DNA of 64,000 nt from Gemmatimonadaceae bacterium (GTDB taxonomy: Bacteria > Gemmatimonadota > Gemmatimonadetes > Gemmatimonadales > Gemmatimonadaceae), in the NCBI GenBank assembly GCA_020851035.1, contig JADZDM010000007.1, positions 1 to 64,000 of the forward strand, given 5' to 3'. Made by a program: the position numbers and the translations under genes. This document shows positions 3,531-46,654 of this stretch, piece by piece (position 1 is the first letter of the stretch; each line of letters begins with the position of its first letter). The notes under the pieces were generated by a model. That model was not told the origin of the DNA, made no database searches, and worked only from the letters and a program-made list of their open reading frames with translations.

Positions 3531-4478
3531 GGCGTCGCTGCGGCCGCGCGCGCCGGAAGAACGCCAGCAGCGGCTCGACGATGCCGCGATCGGTGTGCAG
3601 CGCGACGACGGTCACGCCGGTGCGCGCGAACATCGCCGCCCGCTGCGCATCGAGGCGCTGCGCCGCCGCGGTGTAGCGGTCCCTGAACGCCGCGTCACCG
3701 CTGTCCACCTCCACGCGGGCCCCGGACTCCGGGTCCGCGAGCACGAGCACCCCCGCAGCCGGCAGCCGCCGCTCCACCGGGTCGTCCACCGTGATCACCA
3801 CCACTTCATGCCGCGCCGCCAGCCGGCGCAGCGCCGGCTCGGCGCCGGCGTCACGGAAATCCGAGATCACGAACACGAGAGAGCGATGCGTGAGGTGCCG
3901 GCCAGCCTGCTGACAGGCGAGCGCGATGTCGGTGCGACGCCCCTGCGGGCGCAACGCCAGCAGGTCACGCAGCACACGCAGCCCGTGCCGACGGCCCTTG
4001 GCGGGCGGCACGGCATGCTCGATCCGGTCCGTGAACGCGAGCAGCCCGACGCGGTCGTTGTTGCGCAGCGCGGAGAGGCCGAGCACGGCGGCCACCTCGA
4101 GCGCCACGTCGTCCTTGAAGCGGGTGCGGGTGCCGAAGTGCGCCGAGGCGGAGCAATCCACCAGCAGCAGCACCGTCAGTTCCCGTTCCTCGACGTAGCG
4201 CTTGACGTACGGCTTGCGCAGCCGCGCGGTCACGTTCCAGTCGATGCTGCGCACCTCGTCGCCGGGCTGGTACTCGCGCACCTCCGAGAACTCCATGCCC
4301 TGCCCCTTGTAGACCGAGCGGTACTCGCCGGCGAACGTGGAGTTCACCAGGCGGCGCATGCGCAGCTCGAGGCGGCGCACCTGCTCGAGGATCTCCAGCG
4401 GGGCCGGCGCGCCGAGGGCGGCCGCAGCCGTCGGTGCCGGCGTTCGCACCGCTGGTGCGGAGCGGCGCCAGCGGAGGA

Positions 4479-18748: not shown

Positions 18749-18835
18749 CGGACAGGGTGGGATTCGAACCCACGAGACCCTTTCGAGCCCACACGCTTTC
18801 CAGGCGTGCGCCTTCAACCACTCGGCCACCTGTCC
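18749..18835 (-). tRNA. tRNA-Ser (anticodon GGA)
   Basis: Class II tRNA of 87 nt including the discriminator G. The acceptor stem is GGACAGG/CCTGTCC, the D-arm TGGCCGAGTGG, and the anticodon arm CACGCCTGGAAAGCGTG with loop anticodon GGA. A long variable arm and the T-arm GGGTTCGAATCCC follow. No CCA is encoded. Its 5' half, from the anticodon stem outward, is the 46-bp core repeated at 33625 and 39483. The 5' half and the 5' flank of this gene are therefore probably supplied by the integrated element. Confidence 0.95.
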
Positions 18836-27526: not shown

Positions 27527-28366
27527 CTACGCGCGCAGTACGTCGAGCCGCACCGACTCCATCGATTCAGGAAGTGCGCTCCATTCGAGGGCAGTCTGAG
27601 CCAGAGCGATTTCGATCTCCGCCGGGTGAAACAGCGGAAGATTGCGGCCGGACGCTCTGGTATATGCACCTGTCGTCGCGTTGGCGATACGTGCCAGTTC
27701 CAGCGCGCTGACAACCCGCAGTCCTGCCGGCGGTGTGGACTGCGGCGTTGCGGGCACACGGGGGCCGACGAGGAAATGGTGGCGCCCTGCGTTCGGGAAC
27801 TGTCGCTCAACCCACAGAGCGTGCTGCACCGACCGGCCGATGAGATCCTTACTGTAGTGCTCGTTCACCTTCTTCGTCTTCGCATCGAAGAGGATGACGC
27901 TGGTGCCATCGGGCGTCGCCCACAACACATCAGGCCCTTGACCGCCGGTCTCCTCATCGGGTCGGGTAGCCAAGTAGCCGAGGTACTCGCCAAGCGTTCG
28001 GATGGCCTCTTCGTGCATTGCCGCCGAGCCTTCGCCGTCGCGCAGGTCAGCCTCCGCAGCGGACAGATCGCGCTGGACCCGCTGGGCACCGCGGTCGTCG
28101 AGGAGTGACGCCATGCGCGCCGCCTGCGGAGAGCTCGCGGCAACGTCAGCTGCGGGAGCTGTCAGCCCCGGCGGTAGCGCACCGAGGTCACGCTTCACAG
28201 CGGATGCCCTCCGGTACAATTGACCAGCCTGATCGAGGTCGCCAGCCAACTGCGACGCGAACGCTGCCCAATGCAGCATCCACCCGCCAAGGTTGCGGTC
28301 GGCGGCGAATGCGTCCTGTTTCGCCTGAAGCAGTGCCTTTAGAGCGTTCTCCGGCTTGTTGACCAA
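27527..28366 (-). CDS. PD-(D/E)XK nuclease-like protein, probably the C-terminal part of a truncated larger protein
   Basis: 279 residues from TTG at 28366. Residues about 1-60 are helical and TPR-like (NALKALLQAKQDAFAADRN, AGQLYRRASAVKRDLG). A nuclease core follows, with E127 in GEYLGYLATRP, GPDVLW (D146) and VILFDAKTKK (D161, K163), the spacing expected of PD-(D/E)XK folds. The frame stays open upstream of the TTG with sensible residues (SGRSWETVRGL) for about 24 codons until a stop. No good start exists, and the integrase reading frame begins on the other strand in the same bases. This suggests an N-terminal partner domain, possibly a helicase, was lost when the integrase gene arrived. Confidence 0.65.
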   Translation of the reverse strand: MVNKPENALKALLQAKQDAFAADRNLGGWMLHWAAFASQLAGDLDQAGQLYRRASAVKRDLGALPPGLTAPAADVAASSPQAARMASLLDDRGAQRVQRDLSAAEADLRDGEGSAAMHEEAIRTLGEYLGYLATRPDEETGGQGPDVLWATPDGTSVILFDAKTKKVNEHYSKDLIGRSVQHALWVERQFPNAGRHHFLVGPRVPATPQSTPPAGLRVVSALELARIANATTGAYTRASGRNLPLFHPAEIEIALAQTALEWSALPESMESVRLDVLRA

Positions 28367-29711
28367 GCCCCGTACCGTCTCCCACGATCTTCCCGAGGGT
28401 GTCGCCCGCCAGCCCGGCAGTCGGTACCTCTACGTCTTCGTCAAGTCGCCCGACGGCGGCCCGACCAAGCGATTCAGCACCAAGATCGATTGGACGCAGC
28501 TGACGAAGGCGGAGCACAGGGCAGCCGCCAGGCGCGCCGGTGACCTGTACCGCCTCATCGAAGGCATGCGGATGCACCCGGCGCACCGTGACGTTGCGCG
28601 GGCCGTGTACGACGGCACGCTGCCCATCACGCAGGTCTTCGAGATCGGCCTGGTGGCCGGCGCCACGGGCCTCCGCGCCGCACTCGACGCCAAGGCGCTC
28701 GACGATGCTGACATCGACCTGACTCCGCATCTCGACGCCTTCCGGGCTCACACGATTGGCCTCCACCTGAAGCGACGCGGTCGGCCGATTTCCGCGCACC
28801 ACCGGGACCAGACGGTGTCCGCCATCCGTCGCTACCTCGCCTGGGCCGCCGCCGACGACACCGGCAAGCCCGCCGCGACCGAGCGCAGGCCGCTGTCCCT
28901 GCTCTCCCCGACGCGGTTCCAGCGGTACGTGGCGGTGCTCGAAGCCCGCACCAAAGCAGCCACGAAGGCCGCGGGCAAGTCCGTCAAGAACACGACGGGC
29001 CATCGGCCCGTGCGCGACTGCACCCTCGCCCTGCGCCAGTTCGTGCGCTACCTGCAGGCTGAACGGGGCGTGCCACACGCCGTCGATCCGACCGAGGGGA
29101 AGGCCCCACCGGCGAACAACCCACCGCGCATGCACTGGCTGCCGCTCGAGGACGTGCGGACGCTCATGGCGGCCCTCCCAGCCCCCGGGGGCGTGTACTG
29201 CGCCATCCTCCATGCCACAGCGTTGGACACGTCGGATGTGGCGCGCCTGACCGCCGACAGCTTCGAGCGGCGCGGCGACCGGTGGATGATCAGTGCCTCA
29301 AGCAAGAAGACGCGGACGCGTCGCCGCCGCGTCCCGGTGCATCGTTGGGCCATTCCCGAGATCGAGCCCTACCTGCTGGCGCGAATGGACGCGGACGGAT
29401 CACGCGCGCAGCTCTTTCCGGACTGGGCCCGATGGCGGAACGCGCGGGACCCGTACGCCCGGCTGCATGCGGCCACGGTGGCAAGGCTGGTCGCGCACGG
29501 GCACACGCAGTACGCCGGCTACGAGCCGCGTGACAGCCGGCACAGCGTGGCCGTACAGATGTGCCAGGCGGGTATCCCGATCCAGCTGGTGGCGCAGCAG
29601 CTGGGCAGCGCGGTGGACACGGTCGCGTCCACGTACGCCCAGTGGATCACGACGGAGGAGCAGTGGGACGCGATGCTGGAAAGGCTCGAGACAGCGCAGT
29701 CGCCGGGATGA
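28356..29711 (+). CDS. Tyrosine-recombinase-like site-specific integrase
   Basis: 451 residues if read from TTG at 28356. The true start may be downstream, as there is no ribosome-binding site and the first codons overlap the divergent nuclease frame. An N-terminal SAM-like/core-binding part (about 120-230) precedes the catalytic domain, with LHATALDTSDVARLTADSF, a beta-hairpin lysine in SSKKTRTRRRRVPV, RDSRHSVAVQMCQAGIPIQLVAQQLG and a late tyrosine in STYAQW. By eye the first catalytic Arg (TGxR) is Asp and the HxxR histidine is Arg, so it is a divergent branch. It is the only integrase between the three tRNA-Ser cores, so it should mobilise unit 1. Confidence 0.8.
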   Translation: MLTKPRTVSHDLPEGVARQPGSRYLYVFVKSPDGGPTKRFSTKIDWTQLTKAEHRAAARRAGDLYRLIEGMRMHPAHRDVARAVYDGTLPITQVFEIGLVAGATGLRAALDAKALDDADIDLTPHLDAFRAHTIGLHLKRRGRPISAHHRDQTVSAIRRYLAWAAADDTGKPAATERRPLSLLSPTRFQRYVAVLEARTKAATKAAGKSVKNTTGHRPVRDCTLALRQFVRYLQAERGVPHAVDPTEGKAPPANNPPRMHWLPLEDVRTLMAALPAPGGVYCAILHATALDTSDVARLTADSFERRGDRWMISASSKKTRTRRRRVPVHRWAIPEIEPYLLARMDADGSRAQLFPDWARWRNARDPYARLHAATVARLVAHGHTQYAGYEPRDSRHSVAVQMCQAGIPIQLVAQQLGSAVDTVASTYAQWITTEEQWDAMLERLETAQSPG

Positions 29712-33254: not shown

Positions 33255-33969
33255 GCCACGGTGGGGCTTGGGGAGGCCATCAGCACGGCGGCGGACACCC
33301 GAGTCTTACCGAGGACGCCGGGCGGCGGCAAGTGCGGTGCTCAACGCGCCTGGGGCCCGCAGGGCGACGGGGACTGCCTCCCGGCGCTTCCGGTCACCCA
33401 CCCGGCCAGACGCCCTTCCCGGCGCCGCCGCCCCACTGCCGCCCCTTGCCGGTGGCATGCGGGCGGTACGACACCCTTGCAGCGAGCCGGGAGGACTCGC
33501 GGACGGCAACCCGCGGAATGGCGTGAGCCGATCTCTAGCCATTCGTTAGCCATTGAGTCGCCGGATTCCGCCCTCTCTCGCCCTAGGGAATCCCTCTGGC
33601 AGGGGTGTGTTTTGCCCCCTTTTTCACGCTTTCCAGGCGTGCGCCTTCAACCACTCGGCCACCTGTCCCTAGAGGGGAAACTGCCCCCTCAGTCGTCGAC
33701 CAGCTCATCCATTAGCCATTGGTTAGCCATTGGACACGGGGTGACGAGTCGGTGAAGCTAGTCGAACCGGGGTCGAGAGGTGAGTCCCGACGGGCCACAC
33801 CTCTCTGCCCGTCCCGCCCGCGCTGTCCCCAGGTGTGGGCCGGGCGCTCACTACGACCGAATGGATGGTCCCGCGACCACCTCCTGCGCCCCCTTCCCAC
33901 AGTCGAGCGACGCCCCGTACGCGCCGTGGCTCGGGTGGTGAATCGAGGCCTCTGCCCTAGAGAAGGCGA
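33255..33969. other. Junction of island units 1 and 2; att core B and its arm repeats, no gene
   Basis: The junction holds the left arm of core B (CTAGCCAT at 33535 and TTAGCCAT at 33546), the core, and the right arm (TTAGCCAT at 33712 and 33723). It also holds the stretch beginning GCTAGTCGAACCGGGGTCGA shared with the left end of unit 1. No protein-coding gene is supported. Confidence 0.6.
33602..33671. repeat. att repeat copy B, with the 46-bp core at 33625-33670
   Basis: The core is identical to copy A. A further 23 bp on its left (GGGGTGTGTTTTGCCCCC and then T residues) are identical to copy C at 39460. It carries only the 5' half of tRNA-Ser, so no functional tRNA is made here. It separates unit 1 from unit 2. 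Confidence 0.9.
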
Positions 33970-39459: not shown

Positions 39460-39529
39460 GGGGTGTGTTTTGCCCCCTTTTTCACGCTTTCCAGGCGTGC
39501 GCCTTCAACCACGCGGCCACCTGTCCCTA
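39460..39529. repeat. att repeat copy C, with the 46-bp core at 39483-39528
   Basis: Same sequence as copy B except one base in the core. Where A and B read CCACTCGG, C reads CCACGCGG. In tRNA terms this changes the nearly invariant A14 to C. It is therefore the displaced chromosomal 5' half, no longer under selection, and marks the right boundary of the integrated region. Confidence 0.85.
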
Positions 39530-39822
39530 CAGGGCGTACAGCCCCTCTTCTGCCCCCCGCCCCGACCGGCCGTTGACCAGCCACCGCGAGGCACGGAGAC
39601 GAGGGCGGAACGCAGTCGATACCGGGCGAGGGTGTCAGCCCCGGCCGCACCCATTCCCTGCTCTGCGCCACCGTACACGCCGGACCTGCACCCGACCGAA
39701 CCCACACTCGCGCAGCGTGGTATACCAGCCACTGGCCGCCTGCCACCGGAGACGCAAGTTGAGGAAGGCCCCTCGACCGGCAGCACGACCTCCCACGCCG
39801 GAATACCCGCCTGAGACCGCCG

Positions 39823-41523
39823 ATGACGTTCCGCACCCGCGCCCCGTTCCTGCTGCTGCTGGCCGCCGTGGCACCGCACACACCGGCACTGGCCCAGCCC
39901 GCCGCCTACTCCGTCACGCCACCGGCAGGCTGGCTGAGTGCCGCGCAGGACGGCGCCACGCTGTTCGTTCCGCCCGGTGGCCCGCCCGGCAACACCTACA
40001 TCCTGCTGCTGCCCGTGCAACCACGCACGGCCGACTTCCCCGCGCAGTTCACTGCCAACCGCCAGCGCATGGAAGCCGCGCTCGGACTCACGCTGACCCT
40101 CGAGCGGCCGGGAAAGCGCGGCTCCGGTGCCGCTGGTGACTTCGCGGCCTGGTTCGGCACCTACCGGTCCAGCCAGGGCATGCGGCACGTGGCCTACATG
40201 GCACGGGCCGACAGTGGCGCCTACGGCTCCATGCTGTTCCTGGTCGATTCCGACTCCGGGTACCAGCGCCACGCCGGGAAGGCCACGGAGATGTTCAACG
40301 GGCTGCGCCTCACCCCCGAGGCCGCCCGGCTCGCGGCCGCCGCGCCTCCGCTCACTCCGGCCGCGCCGCGTGAGCCGGCCGGCACGCCGCCAACCCGGCC
40401 CGGTCCGGTGCACGTGACCGCGGGGCGCGTGCCGGCCGACGCGCTGTCCGGCCGCGCGCTGGACCTGCGGCGGGAGCTGGGCGTGTCGCACCTGGAAGGC
40501 ACCTGGGTCTTCGACACCATCAAGCGCGACTTCCGCGTCAGCTTCGGCTCGCAGACGATGGCATCCGGCAGCACCTACGAGACCATGACGACCTCCATGA
40601 CCACCATGGAAGGTGGCGGCGGCACCTACCTGCGCGTGGAGCCGGACGGGCACTATCGCTTCTTCCACGGCTACCGCGACCGGAACTGCAGCACCACGCT
40701 GACGCACGAGGGCACGCTCACGCTGGAGGGCCGCCTGCTGGTGATGCAGCCACAGCGCGCACACGAGTCCAGCCACCGCCTCACGGCAGGGGCCCCGCGG
40801 AGCTGTGTGGAGCGTGACGGCGATGGCTCACTGGCGCCGCGCCGCTACACGGTGGACCTGACCGTGTCGCAGACCGTCTACGGCCTGCCCACGTACCACC
40901 TGTCGCTGACCAACGCCGATGCGCGCGGCGAATCCATCAAGAGCTTCGAACGACTGCAGGCGCGGCCGCTGCCGGAATCCGCCGGCATGCTGCCCAACAG
41001 CACCCCGCCCACTCAACTGCCGCCGCCGCGCATGGTGGGCACCTGGCTGGTGGCGTCTGACGATGCGCCGCTGGACGCGGCGGGGTTCCTCTCGCCGGCC
41101 ACGCGCTACGATGATCGCCGCTACCGCGCAGGGCTGCGCATCCTCGCCAATGGACGATACGAGCTGGTGGTGCGCCGACCGGACGTGCTCAGCGCACCGG
41201 TGTGCACGCGTGACCTGCTGCTCGTGGAGCAGGGCGAGGTGCGGGTCGCCACGTCGCCGTACAACGCCAACGGTGGCAACCTGATCCTGCAGCCCACCTC
41301 GTCGCGCCTGGACGACCGGATCCTGCAATGCGGGGCCGAGAGCGTGCAGCGCACCGCCGACCTCTCACTGGCACCGCGCCACCTGCACTGGCAGATGAGC
41401 GGAAGCCGGGGCGAGCAGCTCGCCGTGCTGTGCGGCGACTGGGCCGACCGCCAGGCGGCCTGGCGCTTCCTCTCCTGTCCGCAGGATGCCGCCCAGGTCT
41501 ACCGCGGGTACACGCGCCAGTGA
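39823..41523 (+). CDS. Secreted protein with repeated beta domains, function unknown
   Basis: 566 residues from ATG at 39823 with a signal peptide (APFLLLLAAVAPHTPALAQ). Residues ~30-170 look like a small periplasmic domain (VTPPAGWLSAAQDGATLFVPPGG). A proline-rich linker (about 175-205) leads to two or three beta-rich modules that begin with LEGTWVFDT and MVGTWLVAS. These resemble lipocalin-like starts (G-x-W). A late Cys-rich segment (VCTRDLL, LQCGAESVQR, VLCGDWAD, LSCPQDA) suggests disulphides. No enzyme motif is seen. It lies outside att core C and so is chromosomal rather than island DNA. Confidence 0.6.
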   Translation: MTFRTRAPFLLLLAAVAPHTPALAQPAAYSVTPPAGWLSAAQDGATLFVPPGGPPGNTYILLLPVQPRTADFPAQFTANRQRMEAALGLTLTLERPGKRGSGAAGDFAAWFGTYRSSQGMRHVAYMARADSGAYGSMLFLVDSDSGYQRHAGKATEMFNGLRLTPEAARLAAAAPPLTPAAPREPAGTPPTRPGPVHVTAGRVPADALSGRALDLRRELGVSHLEGTWVFDTIKRDFRVSFGSQTMASGSTYETMTTSMTTMEGGGGTYLRVEPDGHYRFFHGYRDRNCSTTLTHEGTLTLEGRLLVMQPQRAHESSHRLTAGAPRSCVERDGDGSLAPRRYTVDLTVSQTVYGLPTYHLSLTNADARGESIKSFERLQARPLPESAGMLPNSTPPTQLPPPRMVGTWLVASDDAPLDAAGFLSPATRYDDRRYRAGLRILANGRYELVVRRPDVLSAPVCTRDLLLVEQGEVRVATSPYNANGGNLILQPTSSRLDDRILQCGAESVQRTADLSLAPRHLHWQMSGSRGEQLAVLCGDWADRQAAWRFLSCPQDAAQVYRGYTRQ

Positions 41524-41557
41524 GCGGCGCGGCCGGCGTCGCGGCGCGGGAGCACCG

Positions 41558-42274
41558 TCAGTCGTTCCACGCCGACGCGAGCGCGGCATACAGCAGCGCG
41601 AACCCGATGGCCACGGCCGTGCCACCGATCAACGCCGGCTTCGACCCGAGCCGCGCCCCCGCGTGCAGCCCCGTCGCAAGGCGACCGTCACGGTGGCTCG
41701 CGGAGCCGCGCAGCACGATCGCGCCGTAGTCACTGAAGTTCAGCGCCACGTCACCCACCACCGCCGCACTCCGGGACCGGAATCGCCGCTCACGCACGAT
41801 CCCCGCGCCCACGTCGACCGCCAGGCCGCTGGTGTCGAGCCAGCGGCGATACCGGACCTTCGCGCCAACGTCGGGCCCGAGCACGAGCGCACCACCGATC
41901 GCGTGGTTCGGCCCGCGGTTCGCCATCATCCCCAGCTCCACCAGGATCTCGCTCGCGTGGTCCTCGTCGCGGAGCCCCGGGTAGACGGTTCCATCGTAGC
42001 CGACGGCAGGGCGGCTCGTGGTCGCCACGTTGCGCAGGAAGCCGAGCTCCGTCAGCACGAATCGCCGGCACGCGGGAAGCGGCTGGCCGCGGAAGCAGGT
42101 CAGGCGGGGCGGCTTCCCGGCGGCGGCCGCCGCCGACTGTGCCGCGAGCGGCCCCGGTGCGCCCGCCGCCAGCCCGAGGACAGCGAGCCAGACTGCGCGC
42201 GGGCGACGGAGCCCAGCGGTGGTGGCGTGTGGTGCGCGGAGAGTCACGTGGAAGCGCCTTGATCGAATGGACAT
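41558..42274 (-). CDS. Predicted outer-membrane or secreted protein, unknown
   Basis: 238 residues from ATG at 42274, preceded by GGATGGGGTCTCC. A signal peptide (AVWLAVLGLAAGAPGPLAAQ) precedes alternating-strand sequence (VLTELGFLRNVATTS, GAKVRYRRWLDTSGLAVDVG, VVGDVALNFSDYGAIVL) that looks like a small beta-barrel. It ends in a hydrophobic helix (LIGGTAVAIGFALLYAALA). No family can be named. It is convergent with the upstream plus-strand gene, 34 bp away. Confidence 0.6.
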   Translation of the reverse strand: MSIRSRRFHVTLRAPHATTAGLRRPRAVWLAVLGLAAGAPGPLAAQSAAAAAGKPPRLTCFRGQPLPACRRFVLTELGFLRNVATTSRPAVGYDGTVYPGLRDEDHASEILVELGMMANRGPNHAIGGALVLGPDVGAKVRYRRWLDTSGLAVDVGAGIVRERRFRSRSAAVVGDVALNFSDYGAIVLRGSASHRDGRLATGLHAGARLGSKPALIGGTAVAIGFALLYAALASAWND

Positions 42275-42422
42275 GGAGACCCCATCCCGATGATCGCCAC
42301 GCCCCCATCCGGCGCACATACGTCACCTGACGTAGCCTCGTGTCTCACCTGCTGCACGCAGGCGTGCCGAGCCAGCCGCGGGGAGCCGGCGTCGGCGGCG
42401 AAGCCTCCGCCAGACGACAGAA

Positions 42423-42457
42423 CCGGGCGCCCGCCGCTTTCGCGGCACGACGCCCGG
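42423..42457 (-). terminator. Hairpin downstream of tRNA-Ser(CGA) copy 1
   Basis: CCGGGCG (42423-42429) pairs with CGCCCGG (42451-42457) about 25 bp beyond the 3' end of the tRNA copy on the minus strand. Short but GC-rich. Confidence 0.4.
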
Positions 42458-42480
42458 CTCGGATGGCAGGACTGTTGACG

Positions 42481-42567
42481 ACACGGACAGGGTGGGATTC
42501 GAACCCACGGTACCGTTTCCGGCACGCCGGTTTTCGAGACCGGTTCCTTCAACCACTCGGACACCTG
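42481..42567. repeat. 87-bp perfect direct repeat, left copy
   Basis: Identical to 46019-46105. It covers 3 bases beyond the tRNA-Ser(CGA) 3' end through the 5' acceptor position 4. The flanking bases on the 5' side are similar but diverged (about 80% over 22 bp), as after an old duplication. Confidence 0.9.
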
Positions 42568-42570
42568 CTA
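42484..42570 (-). tRNA. tRNA-Ser (anticodon CGA), copy 1, acceptor stem damaged
   Basis: From the D-arm through the CGA anticodon loop, the long variable arm and the T-arm it is identical to the copy at 46022. The 5' acceptor strand, however, reads TAGCAGG instead of GGACAGG. Paired with CCTGTCC at the 3' end this gives two mismatches and a G-U at the tip. It is probably non-functional or weakly processed. The other copy is intact. Confidence 0.7.
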
Positions 42571-42843
42571 GCAAACGCCGAGGAACTGGCGCGCGCTCCT
42601 GGGCGAGGTATCGAAGGGGAACTCCTCCGTGACCACATCGGCAAAGTCCCAAAACCAACGCGCACACCGGCTGACCATCCGCAGTCGCGAGAGGCAGACA
42701 CATGCGCTTCTCGTTTGTCAACCCGCTCCACGCTCAAGGGTTCTTCCGACGCGAACGATGGCAAGAGTCCAGCATGGCACCCAGGCGATCGTGGAGCACG
42801 CGAGCGTCGTCGTGGAACGAGCAGGAATCGCGACGCGGACGTT
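42571..42843. other. Region between tRNA-Ser(CGA) copy 1 and the subtilase gene; no supported gene
   Basis: Two short plus-strand frames (42629 and 42702) lack a ribosome-binding site and have shadow-like composition. The subtilase gene ends at 42844, facing this interval. Confidence 0.4.
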
Positions 42844-45186
42844 CTATCGCGTTGCGACGAACCGCTTCGCCACTCGCCGCGACTGCGGAACGGACGGCCA
42901 AAGCGCACTGGTCCCCCGACCCACGCGAAACGCATAGCAGCTAGACGGATCGATGCAGCCGGTGTTGGTATTGATCGAGACGGAAAGCATCGAAGTCGCG
43001 ACTGAGACCCCGCCCTCCACGATCCTCGCCCGCACAAGGAGCGTTCCGGAGTAGTAAGGCTCGACCCACCGAGCGTAAGTCGGACCCGTGGCCGAGATGG
43101 ACCATGATTGACCGCCGTCGCTCGACACATCCCAACCAATCGTGGATGCAGGCGGCGCATTGACCGCCGTTGCGTACCACGAGTGCGAGCCAGCTTCAGA
43201 AACAAAAGTCGGGCCGGCTATCGTGATGCTCACCTGTGACACCGGCGGTGGTCCTGGGTAGGCCCTGTCAGTATCCCAGCAGTTCGACGGGAGTGAGCAC
43301 ACGAGAACGGGACGGGTCACAATATCGTCTGTCCCAAGGGCATTGTCGTGGAGCTGGAAAGTGACGGAATCCTTGTACGGGGCACCATCGACCGAGCGTG
43401 CGAAGGACACGCGGTTCACGAACACCTTTGCGCCGTCAGCGTCGACATACGACGTCCCGCCGAGACCCTGCATGACGGTGCCGCCAACCCTGGTGCTCCA
43501 GTTGACACTGTAGTTCCCGGATCCAGTATTGGCACTTGGCAGAGCGTTCAGGTGGTTCGCGACGACATTGCTCAGTATGTACCCTTCGCCGTAGGGCTGA
43601 TCGTCCGTATAGTAGGTGACCGGTTGCATGCTGCGCCACCGAACGATGCAGGGCCCTCCGTTCGCGGCACCAGCGTCGAAACCGGTGCCCTCGGCGTTCT
43701 GCAGGCCATTGCAGCCCTTCGATGCGATCAGTCGGTTCACAATCTGCGCCGCAGAGAGATACTGAAAGCGCGCGCGCATCAACGCCACGACGCCGCTGAC
43801 AACCGCCGTGGCGCCGGACGAGCCTTCGAGGCCAACGATACTCGTGCTCCCAAGCGTGCGCGTCGCGCTGCCGACAACTGCACGAATCTTCCACGGATTC
43901 GATCCCAGCCCGTACACGTTTGTCGGGAAGCTACCGTCTTCGAGCATTCCTGACACGGCCAAGACTTCCGCCTGAGCAGCGGGCCACACGGGCGTCGAAC
44001 CATACGGACAGACCTGCGCTGGTGGACCGTCGTAGCAAGTCCCCGCGGCACCAACGTATACGATGCCTAGACCATAGTATCCGCGATCGATCTCGTCGGA
44101 GATCGCCTGGGAGAAACGGGTGAGCCCCCACGCCATGTTGATCACCTTCGCGTGGCGAACAGATGCCGCCATCACAAGGGCTTGGCGCATTTCCCATGTA
44201 CCGCCAAATGTGTTGATGAGCACGTTGTCGTTCCCCCATACGAACGCCATCGAGGCACCATAGGCGACGCCGACGACACCACTTCCATCTCTCGGCGCGC
44301 CGATGATACCCGCGCTGCGTGTGCCATGGGCACATGTCGGAAAGGGGAAATTGTTGGACACGGTCTTGTCGACCGTCAACGCCCGCCCGGCACTTGCACC
44401 CGCGGCAAAGCGGCCCGGAGCGAACTCGGACGCCGGCGACTGATCGAGGCCGGTGTCAGTTACGCCGACCACGACTCCGGTCCCAGTCGTCATCCGCCAC
44501 GCGTTCGCGATGTTCATGCCCCAGAAGGTCCGGAAGGATCGCGAATACTTGTCGGCGCCGGAACCGAGCGTCAACGACAGCAACGAGCTCGAGGACAGGG
44601 GATCCCCAACTCCGCAACTGCTGAACGACTGCACAGGGGCCGATGCAGGTTCGACGTACGACGACGACGGCAGTCGACGAAGCTCCCCGAGCGCTCGGAC
44701 GCCGGAGACCTTCACCACGGCAAGCGGTGCGTGTACGGAATCGACATACGTGACGCGAAGGCCCTTGACCCGAGCCAGTTCATCTGCCTTCTGCACCCAG
44801 GCGTGTCGGGTTAGTGTCGGCACCCCCCGTTCAACCGATCGCAGCGCACCTGGCGCGCGGAGTCCGACGATGACAGCGGAGTCAGTCCGAGCGATGACGG
44901 CCCAGAGCTCGTCATCGCTAAGCGACGTCCAACGTGCTGGCGCCGCACCGCGGTCCTTCAACACCTGTGCGGACACCGCGCCAGCCGCGGCCACTGTCGG
45001 ATCCGTGGGGTCCAGGGAGCAACCTTGGGTCGCGATGCACGCCAGGAGAAGAAGCGCAGCTCGGCAGCGAGCCGCGCGCACATGTCGCGCGATAGCGACT
45101 AGAACGGCGGGCAGAGCGACCCGTGGTTTCGTGGCAGGTCGTGTGCCCGCAGTACACGCTGTCCTTCGGAACCGTCGCACTGACAT
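42844..45186 (-). CDS. Subtilisin-like (S8) serine peptidase lipoprotein
   Basis: 780 residues from ATG at 45186, with GGAGAGCGACT upstream. A basic leader and hydrophobic segment end in a lipobox (ACIATQGCS). The peptidase domain covers about 225-500: Asp244 in GVTDTGLD, His287 in CAHGTRSAGIIG, Ser457 in GLEGSSGATAVVSG. The oxyanion Asn is missing: the block expected as AAGN reads GAAGTC. After it come Ig-like repeats (SVNWSTRVGGTVMQGLGG, ITIAGPTFVSEAGSHSWYA), which are common anchors or binding modules. It probably acts outside the cell, with activity reduced or altered. It lies between the two tRNA-Ser(CGA) copies. Confidence 0.85.
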   Translation of the reverse strand: MSVRRFRRTACTAGTRPATKPRVALPAVLVAIARHVRAARCRAALLLLACIATQGCSLDPTDPTVAAAGAVSAQVLKDRGAAPARWTSLSDDELWAVIARTDSAVIVGLRAPGALRSVERGVPTLTRHAWVQKADELARVKGLRVTYVDSVHAPLAVVKVSGVRALGELRRLPSSSYVEPASAPVQSFSSCGVGDPLSSSSLLSLTLGSGADKYSRSFRTFWGMNIANAWRMTTGTGVVVGVTDTGLDQSPASEFAPGRFAAGASAGRALTVDKTVSNNFPFPTCAHGTRSAGIIGAPRDGSGVVGVAYGASMAFVWGNDNVLINTFGGTWEMRQALVMAASVRHAKVINMAWGLTRFSQAISDEIDRGYYGLGIVYVGAAGTCYDGPPAQVCPYGSTPVWPAAQAEVLAVSGMLEDGSFPTNVYGLGSNPWKIRAVVGSATRTLGSTSIVGLEGSSGATAVVSGVVALMRARFQYLSAAQIVNRLIASKGCNGLQNAEGTGFDAGAANGGPCIVRWRSMQPVTYYTDDQPYGEGYILSNVVANHLNALPSANTGSGNYSVNWSTRVGGTVMQGLGGTSYVDADGAKVFVNRVSFARSVDGAPYKDSVTFQLHDNALGTDDIVTRPVLVCSLPSNCWDTDRAYPGPPPVSQVSITIAGPTFVSEAGSHSWYATAVNAPPASTIGWDVSSDGGQSWSISATGPTYARWVEPYYSGTLLVRARIVEGGVSVATSMLSVSINTNTGCIDPSSCYAFRVGRGTSALWPSVPQSRRVAKRFVATR

Positions 45187-45878
45187 AGTCGCTCTCCAGA
45201 CATAAGGTGGATCAGCACAATAGGAGTCAGCGCCCGTGGTGTGTCAAGGGCGGATCGTGCAGGCCTCGAGTGTCGGAGCTTCTGTCGGAGTTGAGCGGAT
45301 AAGGCCGCATGCAGGGCGCGACCGCCATGCTGAGAGACCACGTGTGTGCCGAGCGATCCCGGACGCAGAAAACTGATACCGTCGGCCTTTGGGGGTTACC
45401 CGAGGTTGTGCATGACACGCGATACTTGCGGCAGGGCTGATGAGTCTTCCTGCCTGATGCGCTGTGCCGTGCCTTGCCGTCCTGCCCTGTGTTACGACTG
45501 CCTGCAGCGTGGGGGGAGTGCGCCCAGGTGCGTCGCGCGCGCTCTGGTGGGGACTGCAGGCACGGCGAACGCAATGCTACATGCTGGGCGGCGAGGCTCC
45601 GCCTGATCAGCAGTCTGCGCCACCTCTTGACCTTGGGAACTCCGCCGCTCGCGGCGTGCCTCGAGACGACACTTCCACAGCGCGCCGCGTTTTCCGCGTC
45701 GGTGTGGATCGCCTCTCTGGGAGAGGCTGGCGCGCCAAGGGATGGGTGACCCTGTTGATAGTGCTCGTCCACATGAACGAGCGAGACCCAGGCCCGCCGA
45801 GGCAGTCGCGCACCCTCTTCCTCAGCGGCCGCTGATCAAGTTCAGCCGCCGGAGGGCGCCACAGGGATCCGACGCGGC

Positions 45879-45899
45879 CCCGCTGAGAATCTCAGCGGG
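45879..45899. repeat. 21-bp palindrome
   Basis: CCCGCTGAGA and its reverse complement meet at one central base (45889). It might be an operator or the tip of a mobile-element end. No gene close by clearly uses it. Confidence 0.5.
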
Positions 45900-45967
45900 C
45901 GCTGCCTCGGCCAACTTCTTCCTCTGAGTAGCGCGCCTGACCGGCCGCCCGGATGCCCCGAAATAGA

Positions 45968-46003
45968 GTCCGGGCCCCACCGAAGCGACGGCGAGACCCG
46001 GAC
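45968..46003 (-). terminator. Hairpin downstream of the intact tRNA-Ser(CGA)
   Basis: GTCCGGG (45968-45974) pairs with CCCGGAC (45997-46003), with a 22-base loop that can pair further. It is about 20 bp beyond the tRNA 3' end on the minus strand. Confidence 0.45.
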
Positions 46004-46018
46004 GACACTGAGTGATGT

Positions 46019-46105
46019 ACACGGACAGGGTGGGATTCGAACCCACGGTACCGTTTCCGGCACGCCGGTTTTCGAGACCGGTTCCTTCAACCACTCGGAC
46101 ACCTG
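46019..46105. repeat. 87-bp perfect direct repeat, right copy
   Basis: Identical to 42481-42567. This copy lies inside an intact tRNA-Ser(CGA) gene. Together the two copies bracket about 3.45 kb with the subtilase gene. Confidence 0.9.
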
Positions 46106-46108
46106 TCC
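46022..46108 (-). tRNA. tRNA-Ser (anticodon CGA), intact copy
   Basis: 87 nt including the discriminator G. The acceptor stem is GGACAGG/CCTGTCC, the D-arm TGTCCGAGTGG, the anticodon arm CCGGTCTCGAAAACCGG with CGA, and the long variable arm and T-arm GGGTTCGAATCCC follow. No CCA is encoded. It shares its acceptor and T-arm with tRNA-Ser(GGA), as expected for tRNAs charged by one seryl-tRNA synthetase. Confidence 0.95.
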
Positions 46109-46150
46109 AGCAACGCCAATGAACCGGCGTAGCCTTTGAGTCTAGGCACT

Positions 46151-46654
46151 TCAGGGCGACGGGTCAACGTCCATGGAGGTCACGGCCTCCTCCCGCCGGC
46201 CGGCGAAGAAGGCCTTCAGCATCGCGCCCGCCTCGTCCGCCAGCACCCCGCCGGCCACCTCGGGCCGGTGGTTCAGCCGCGGATGCCGCAACAGGTCGCC
46301 CACCGACCCCGCCATGCCCGCCTTCGGGTCCCAGGCGGCGAACACCACCCGGTCCACGCGGCTCAGCACGATCGCCCCGGCACACATCGCACACGGCTCC
46401 AGTGTCACGTACAACGTGCAGCCCGTCAGCCGGTCACTGCCGCGGACCGACATGGCCGCGCGCAGCGCGCGCAACTCGGCGTGCTGCGTGGCGTCGGCAT
46501 CACCACGCATGGCGTTGGCGCCGGTGGCGACGAGCGCGTCATCCGCCACCACGCACGCCCCCACCGGCACCTCCCCCCGCGCACGCGCAGCGGTTGCCTC
46601 GTCCAGCGCCACCTGCATCCAGCGCGCGTCGCCCGGACGCGCGAACGCACTCAC
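46151..46654 (-). CDS. tadA: tRNA-specific adenosine deaminase TadA
   Basis: 167 residues from GTG at 46654, overlapping the clpB stop (GTGA). The zinc and catalytic motif is HAELRAL, followed by [15 protein letters not shown] with the two cysteine ligands. The N-terminus [18 protein letters not shown] and the late [16 protein letters not shown] are typical. The enzyme makes inosine at the wobble position of tRNA-Arg(ACG). The gene follows clpB directly and is the last gene of that run. Confidence 0.95.

Follow-up and report, generated by a model that had tools for sequence, protein, structure and literature searches.

We analysed a window of 64,000 nucleotides (nt), positions 1 to 64,000 of contig JADZDM010000007.1 (C7), which is part of a 4.97-Mb draft genome (34 contigs) of a Gemmatimonadaceae bacterium; its nearest named relatives are metagenome-assembled genomes of the Gemmatimonadaceae. 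In this window one native tRNA-Ser(CGA) gene, running from 46108 into 42484, is split by 3,451 bp of inserted DNA (42568-46018) with a single recognisable gene, encoding a subtilase. The native promoter lies on an intact upstream copy of the tRNA gene and the native 3' flank lies behind a broken downstream copy, thus a single gene has been opened by the insert. The locus comprises the following elements:

46022..46108, minus strand: intact tRNA-Ser(CGA) gene with its native 5' end and promoter (ARAGORN, Rfam score, orthologues in the genomes G001 and G002)
46019..46105, minus strand: direct repeat copy 1, 87 bp (exact identity)
42481..42567, minus strand: direct repeat copy 2, 87 bp (exact identity)
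42484..42570, minus strand: displaced promoterless tRNA-Ser(CGA) copy with a broken acceptor tip (sequence, Rfam score, fold, promoter scan)
42568..46018, no strand: inserted DNA, the lowest-GC (guanine plus cytosine) stretch of its size in the window (GC scan; site empty in G001 and G002)
46139..46167, minus strand: sigma-70-type promoter TTGACC-17-TAGACT of the intact tRNA gene (scan; same hexamers upstream of the G001 gene)
42421..42480, minus strand: terminator region that formed the native 3' flank of the ancestral tRNA-Ser(CGA) gene and today follows the broken copy (matches positions 3542-3600 of locus L035 from G001)
46151..46654, minus strand: tadA-like deaminase gene, the conserved upstream neighbour (domain and locus comparison)

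A preceding sequence-only reading had described an 87-bp repeat at 42481 and 46019, with one of the two tRNA copies damaged at its tip, and both observations are confirmed. The segments 42481-42567 and 46019-46105 agree at all 87 positions (100%) and cover positions 4-87 of tRNA-Ser(CGA), i.e., 84 of its 87 positions, plus 3 nt past the 3' end; for a mere 19-nt piece of the repeat, with 3 mismatches allowed, the chance expectation in the window is 0.01. ARAGORN called both copies as tRNA genes, with ends shifted by one base; the canonical gene runs from 46108 to 46022 and the copy from 42570 to 42484. The acceptor 5' strand is GGACAGG in the intact gene and TAGCAGG in the downstream copy, which can no longer form the two outermost acceptor pairs (1-72 and 2-71) and has G-U at pair 3-70. 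The predicted fold energy is -40.6 kcal/mol for the intact copy versus -33.7 kcal/mol for the broken one, and the respective scores against the Rfam tRNA model are 58.8 and 42.1 bits. The broken tip has no counterpart in the 178 other genomes of the family that served as the comparison set for this feature and for the subtilase. The promoter scan found a recognisable promoter on copy 1 only. We infer that the upstream copy is the working tRNA-Ser(CGA) gene and the downstream copy a displaced, att-like remnant.

The state of the site in relatives agrees with a gain of DNA, as had been proposed from the sequence. Two genomes of the same genus, G001 and G002, were used for site comparison; both carry tadA and one tRNA-Ser(CGA) gene with no subtilase at the site and with unrelated DNA downstream, so that the second copy and the intervening DNA are not shared by all relatives. 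The match of the G001 terminator region to the flank behind the broken copy was reached by 0 of 2000 shuffles, and the flank behind the intact copy has a weak similarity to the same region (38 of 2000 shuffles). tRNA-Ser(CGA) is also single-copy in 18 further relatives with long loci, and no tandem tRNA-Ser(CGA) pair occurs in any relative examined. With a GC of 0.638, the insert differs in composition from the window as a whole (0.696), whose lowest-GC stretch of 3,448 bp begins at 42473, less than 100 bp from the insert start; an unequal exchange with no gain of DNA is thereby contradicted. The exact crossover point is hidden by the shared 87 bp. The tadA gene lies near one tRNA-Ser(CGA) gene in many named genomes, and the same neighbourhood was seen in contigs of several phyla, including Gemmatimonadota, Acidobacteria, Bacillota, Actinobacteria and others (named loci L140-L217).

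The open reading frames (ORFs) of the insert were compared with Pfam and PHROGs, and tblastn searches were performed with three recombinases. The content of the insert is as follows:

42844..45186, minus strand: subtilase (Peptidase_S8) gene, 780 aa, the sole recognisable gene of the insert (Pfam)
45187..46018, no strand: DNA with no recognisable gene or match (domain and similarity searches)
45968..46003, minus strand: 15-pair terminator-like hairpin that follows the intact tRNA gene, inside the insert (hairpin scan)

The subtilase contains a Peptidase_S8 domain (PF00082, 3e-20, residues 235-502) with all three catalytic motifs, D244, H287 and GSSGA at 455-459, and its relatives of solved structure are bacterial subtilisins and mycosins. 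Homologs with E < 1e-20 are encoded in 6 of the 178 other family genomes, at 31-41% identity. The N-terminal 60 residues contain a hydrophobic stretch followed by a candidate lipobox, ATQGC. Thus, of the subtilisin-like lipoprotein predicted earlier, the subtilase assignment stands on the domain and its motifs, whereas the lipoprotein assignment is not confirmed, ATQGC not being a standard lipobox. Judging from its family, the enzyme probably functions in extracytoplasmic proteolysis. The description of the insert as gene-poor holds for the 0.8 kb at 45187-46018, where domain and similarity searches revealed no domain, no meaningful match and no relic module. ORF profile searches found no transfer genes in the insert.

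Two other genomes of the order have DNA inserted at the same tRNA gene and with the same polarity. In G023, an 8.4-kb island with two transposases lies between tRNA-Ser(CGA) and its 55-56-nt 3' fragment and starts with a 409-aa recombinase-like ORF (L051:4227-5456) with a C-terminal motif resembling that of tyrosine recombinases (YDLR...GH...Y); from this motif, the ORF may encode a divergent tyrosine recombinase. In G038, tRNA-Ser(CGA) is separated from its 58-nt 3' fragment by 3.0 kb with one protein-kinase gene and no recombinase, a content that matches our insert in having a single cargo gene and lacking a recombinase. The repeats of these two islands (55-58 nt) are shorter than the 87 bp found here, however, and their cargo is unrelated to the subtilase. 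Together with the 3' fragments of tRNA-Ser(GGA) in G005, G007, G021, G033 and G046, the two islands establish tRNA-Ser genes as regular targets in this group.

We consider it probable that a small circle was inserted by an integrase-type reaction into the single tRNA-Ser(CGA) gene behind tadA; this reading is favoured by the way the insert ends exactly at tRNA sequence, by the reconstitution of an intact gene, by the polarity and by the similar islands in relatives. A small, presumably circular DNA would have carried the subtilase gene together with a stretch almost the same as tRNA-Ser(CGA), and would have recombined with the chromosomal gene, the exchange most likely being carried out by a tyrosine integrase since lost from the element or acting in trans. 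The upstream copy would thereby have kept the promoter and an intact acceptor stem, and the displaced downstream copy would have kept the native 3' flank. The present state would be that of a fixed, integrase-less cargo island that delivered one subtilase. The lack of any difference between the two copies across 87 bp, set between dissimilar flanks, is what a recent crossover would leave.

Several observations weigh against an integrase. Elsewhere in this genome and in the family, displaced 3' fragments begin at the anticodon arm (at about positions 27-34), whereas the identity here extends to position 4; integrase action neither needs nor explains the approximately 28 nt of extra repeat. Neither Pfam, PHROGs nor the tblastn searches detected a recombinase gene or a remnant of one in the insert, which bears out the earlier statement that it lacks its own integrase, and the Pfam, PHROGs and NCBIfam models did not identify the recombinase-like ORF of G023 as an integrase. 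No mobile donor or free element emerged when the subtilase or the tRNA was sought in plasmids, viral contigs and GTDB contigs, with the exception of phage tRNA-Ser genes at no more than 83% identity. Finally, the sequence 5' of copy 2 shows a weak resemblance to the copy 1 leader: the score is 27, against a maximum of 24.5 among the leaders from 29 relatives, and the local score was reached by 3 of 2000 shuffles.

The leader resemblance and the missing integrase are the points on which the main rival draws, namely a RecA-type single crossover in which no site-specific recombinase takes part, the incoming circle or fragment having come from a close relative and brought a complete tRNA-Ser(CGA) gene with it. 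It owes its standing to the repeat being nearly a whole tRNA, an identity exceeding the fragments left by other islands in this genome, and it would also account for the strong terminator hairpin at the insert start, as in a tRNA transcription unit. We nevertheless regard it as possible but less likely, with a probability of roughly one in four, since the donor tRNA tip must have been broken beforehand or become broken later, the leader resemblance is just slightly above that of unrelated leaders, and tRNA-Ser genes, CGA included, are repeatedly occupied in the family by islands with short fragments.

The same leader-like sequence upstream of copy 2 would fit a history in which this lineage duplicated the tRNA gene in tandem, the second copy decayed and the subtilase was later gained in between by unrelated means. 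Such a history is improbable because, had copy 2 decayed like its leader (approximately 4 substitutions in 21 positions), 0 changes in 87 bp would have a probability near 1e-8; moreover, none of the examined relatives has two tandem CGA copies, and the GC step coincides with the repeats. An assembly artefact that joined unrelated DNA via the 87-bp tRNA repeat, for which the 34 contigs and the shortness of the repeat might speak, is very improbable given the native flanks on the outer sides in the expected order and the broken tip in one copy only.

The window contains a second insertion, at a tRNA-Ser(GGA) gene, with the following elements:

39483..39526, minus strand: orphan 5' half of tRNA-Ser(GGA), 44 nt, 98%, a boundary of the second insertion (tRNA comparison)
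33625..33668, minus strand: second orphan 5' half of tRNA-Ser(GGA), 44 nt, 100% (tRNA comparison)
18749..18835, minus strand: complete tRNA-Ser(GGA) gene, closing the second insertion on its far side (ARAGORN)
28356..29711, plus strand: tyrosine integrase of the second insertion (Pfam Phage_integrase, 5.6e-9; phrog_1 integrase, 8.6e-20)

The region 18749-39526 consists of two tandem units bounded by the 44-nt 5' halves; both seem to hold transporter genes of the HlyD/ABC kind, and the integrase was found only in the distal unit. At two of the three boundaries, the tRNA part is preceded by the same stretch of approximately 30 nt (CTCACCTCTCGACCCCGGTTCGACTAGCTT), and short direct repeats near CTCACCTCTCGACCCCGGTTCGACTAGCTT (ATGCTAA and ATGGCTAA) resemble integrase arm sites, as far as can be judged from their sequence. 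Islands of the 5'-fragment type are the rarer kind, accounting for 159 of 3,919 islands in Islander (PMC4383910). The subtilase insert had been likened to this second insertion, which indeed exists, but the likeness is limited: there a 5' half is displaced, two units are present and the full gene stands at the far end, whereas here the 3' part is displaced and the upstream copy is intact. No sequence similarity was detected between the two inserts, and the two are different types of event.

That two adjacent tRNA-Ser genes were targeted, as the sequence had suggested, is supported, and their adjacency is ancestral: tRNA-Ser(GGA) follows one tRNA-Ser(CGA) within about 54-461 bp in 17 of the 18 family genomes with long loci, the exception being G023 with an island at that place. 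Between the two tRNA-Ser loci, at 39527-42480, lie two high-GC genes (GC 0.72), 39823-41523 and 41558-42319, with no known domain. G001 and G002 hold other DNA there, so the two tRNA genes seem to have become separated already at the level of this genus.

The inference of a preference for seryl tRNAs in this genome, on the other hand, is not supported. Displaced 3' fragments were surveyed by a genome-wide T-loop pattern scan and a comparison of tRNA fragments. Among the tRNA-Ser genes, orphan fragments accompany two of the four (CGA and GGA), the T-loop pattern scan detecting no displaced fragments of tRNA-Ser(GCT) or tRNA-Ser(TGA). Displaced fragments also belong to tRNA-Pro(GGG) (41 nt, 95%, 4.07 kb away), tRNA-Gly(TCC) (47 nt, 100%, 20 kb away), tRNA-Gly(CCC) (45 nt, 93%, 13 kb away) and tRNA-Asn(GTT) (42-48 nt, at two contig ends). 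The resulting ratio of 2/4 tRNA-Ser genes versus 4/38 other tRNA genes gives p = 0.09 in a Fisher test, in which the two Ser cases represent one locus and are not independent.

The intervals at these other tRNA genes vary in content. Downstream of tRNA-Pro(GGG) (L139, L097; fragment C2:190155-190194), the four main ORFs encode an epimerase, a hydrolase, an unknown protein and a TetR regulator, with no recombinase among them. The 20-kb tRNA-Gly(TCC) island (C33:61163-81500; L135, L099) has a tyrosine integrase (L135:18381-19991) near the identical fragment. A further subtilase gene (L100:4544-5758) lies in the 13-kb tRNA-Gly(CCC) interval (L100, C17:25500-40000), where none of the ORFs tested encodes an integrase. 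tRNA-Asn(GTT) lies at one contig end and its fragments at two others (L106 and L110, the ends of C19 and C26; L084, C13:1-74), a pattern that suggests tandem islands that broke the assembly.

Among known systems, the tRNA-gene (tDNA) islands catalogued in Islander (PMC4383910) share with the subtilase insert an intact tRNA gene, a displaced 3' part downstream in the same orientation, foreign DNA in between and an empty site in relatives, and the island DNA is indeed missing from the site in the relatives compared here. The length of 3,451 bp falls within the 2-200 kb accepted by Islander. However, no tyrosine integrase gene lies within the insert, and nearly the entire tRNA is present in the displaced copy; we therefore class it as an integrase-less relative rather than an Islander-type island, and the integrase filter of Islander would reject it. 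The closest known kind is that of cis-mobilizable elements (CIMEs; PMC5704250, PMC3146451), which likewise have att-like flanking repeats and no integration or transfer genes; CIMEs originate by decay of integrative conjugative or integrative mobilizable elements, whereas no relic module pointing to such an origin was found here and the att sites are putative. In layout the insert is a tDNA island that lacks an integrase. Integrase-less islands are known, for example the 15 ssrA islands of Dehalococcoides (PMC3146451).

Two further parallels were considered and rejected. In mycobacteriophage tRNA-dependent lysogeny (PMC10865867) the element also bears a tRNA sequence of the same kind as its target, but the sequence common to attP and attB is approximately 10 bp long and integration does not restore the host tRNA, which does not fit the 87-bp repeat and the intact upstream copy. 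Tycheposons are described with a tyrosine recombinase, which is absent from the insert.

The insert thus belongs to the known tRNA-bounded islets that carry no recombinase, being small and having an unusually long repeat. Insertion into a tRNA gene is a common bacterial route of gene gain; what is unusual here is the shortness and the lack of an own recombinase. The locus exemplifies a case missed by island finders that demand an integrase. For a phylum that has received little study, it records the delivery of a single gene into a tRNA gene by an element with no recombinase of its own, and the survey around it corrects the earlier suggestion that this genome favours seryl tRNAs. We advance only as a speculative and rather doubtful extension that very small recombinase-less, tRNA-bounded cargo cassettes of one to few genes recur in Gemmatimonadaceae and relatives and are moved in trans by resident tyrosine integrases; candidates are the 3.5-kb tRNA-Ser(CGA)/subtilase insert, the 4.07-kb tRNA-Pro(GGG) interval, the proximal tRNA-Ser(GGA) unit of 5.9 kb and the 3.0-kb tRNA-Ser(CGA)/kinase island of G038. 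If such a class exists, tRNA genes would act as cassette docks.

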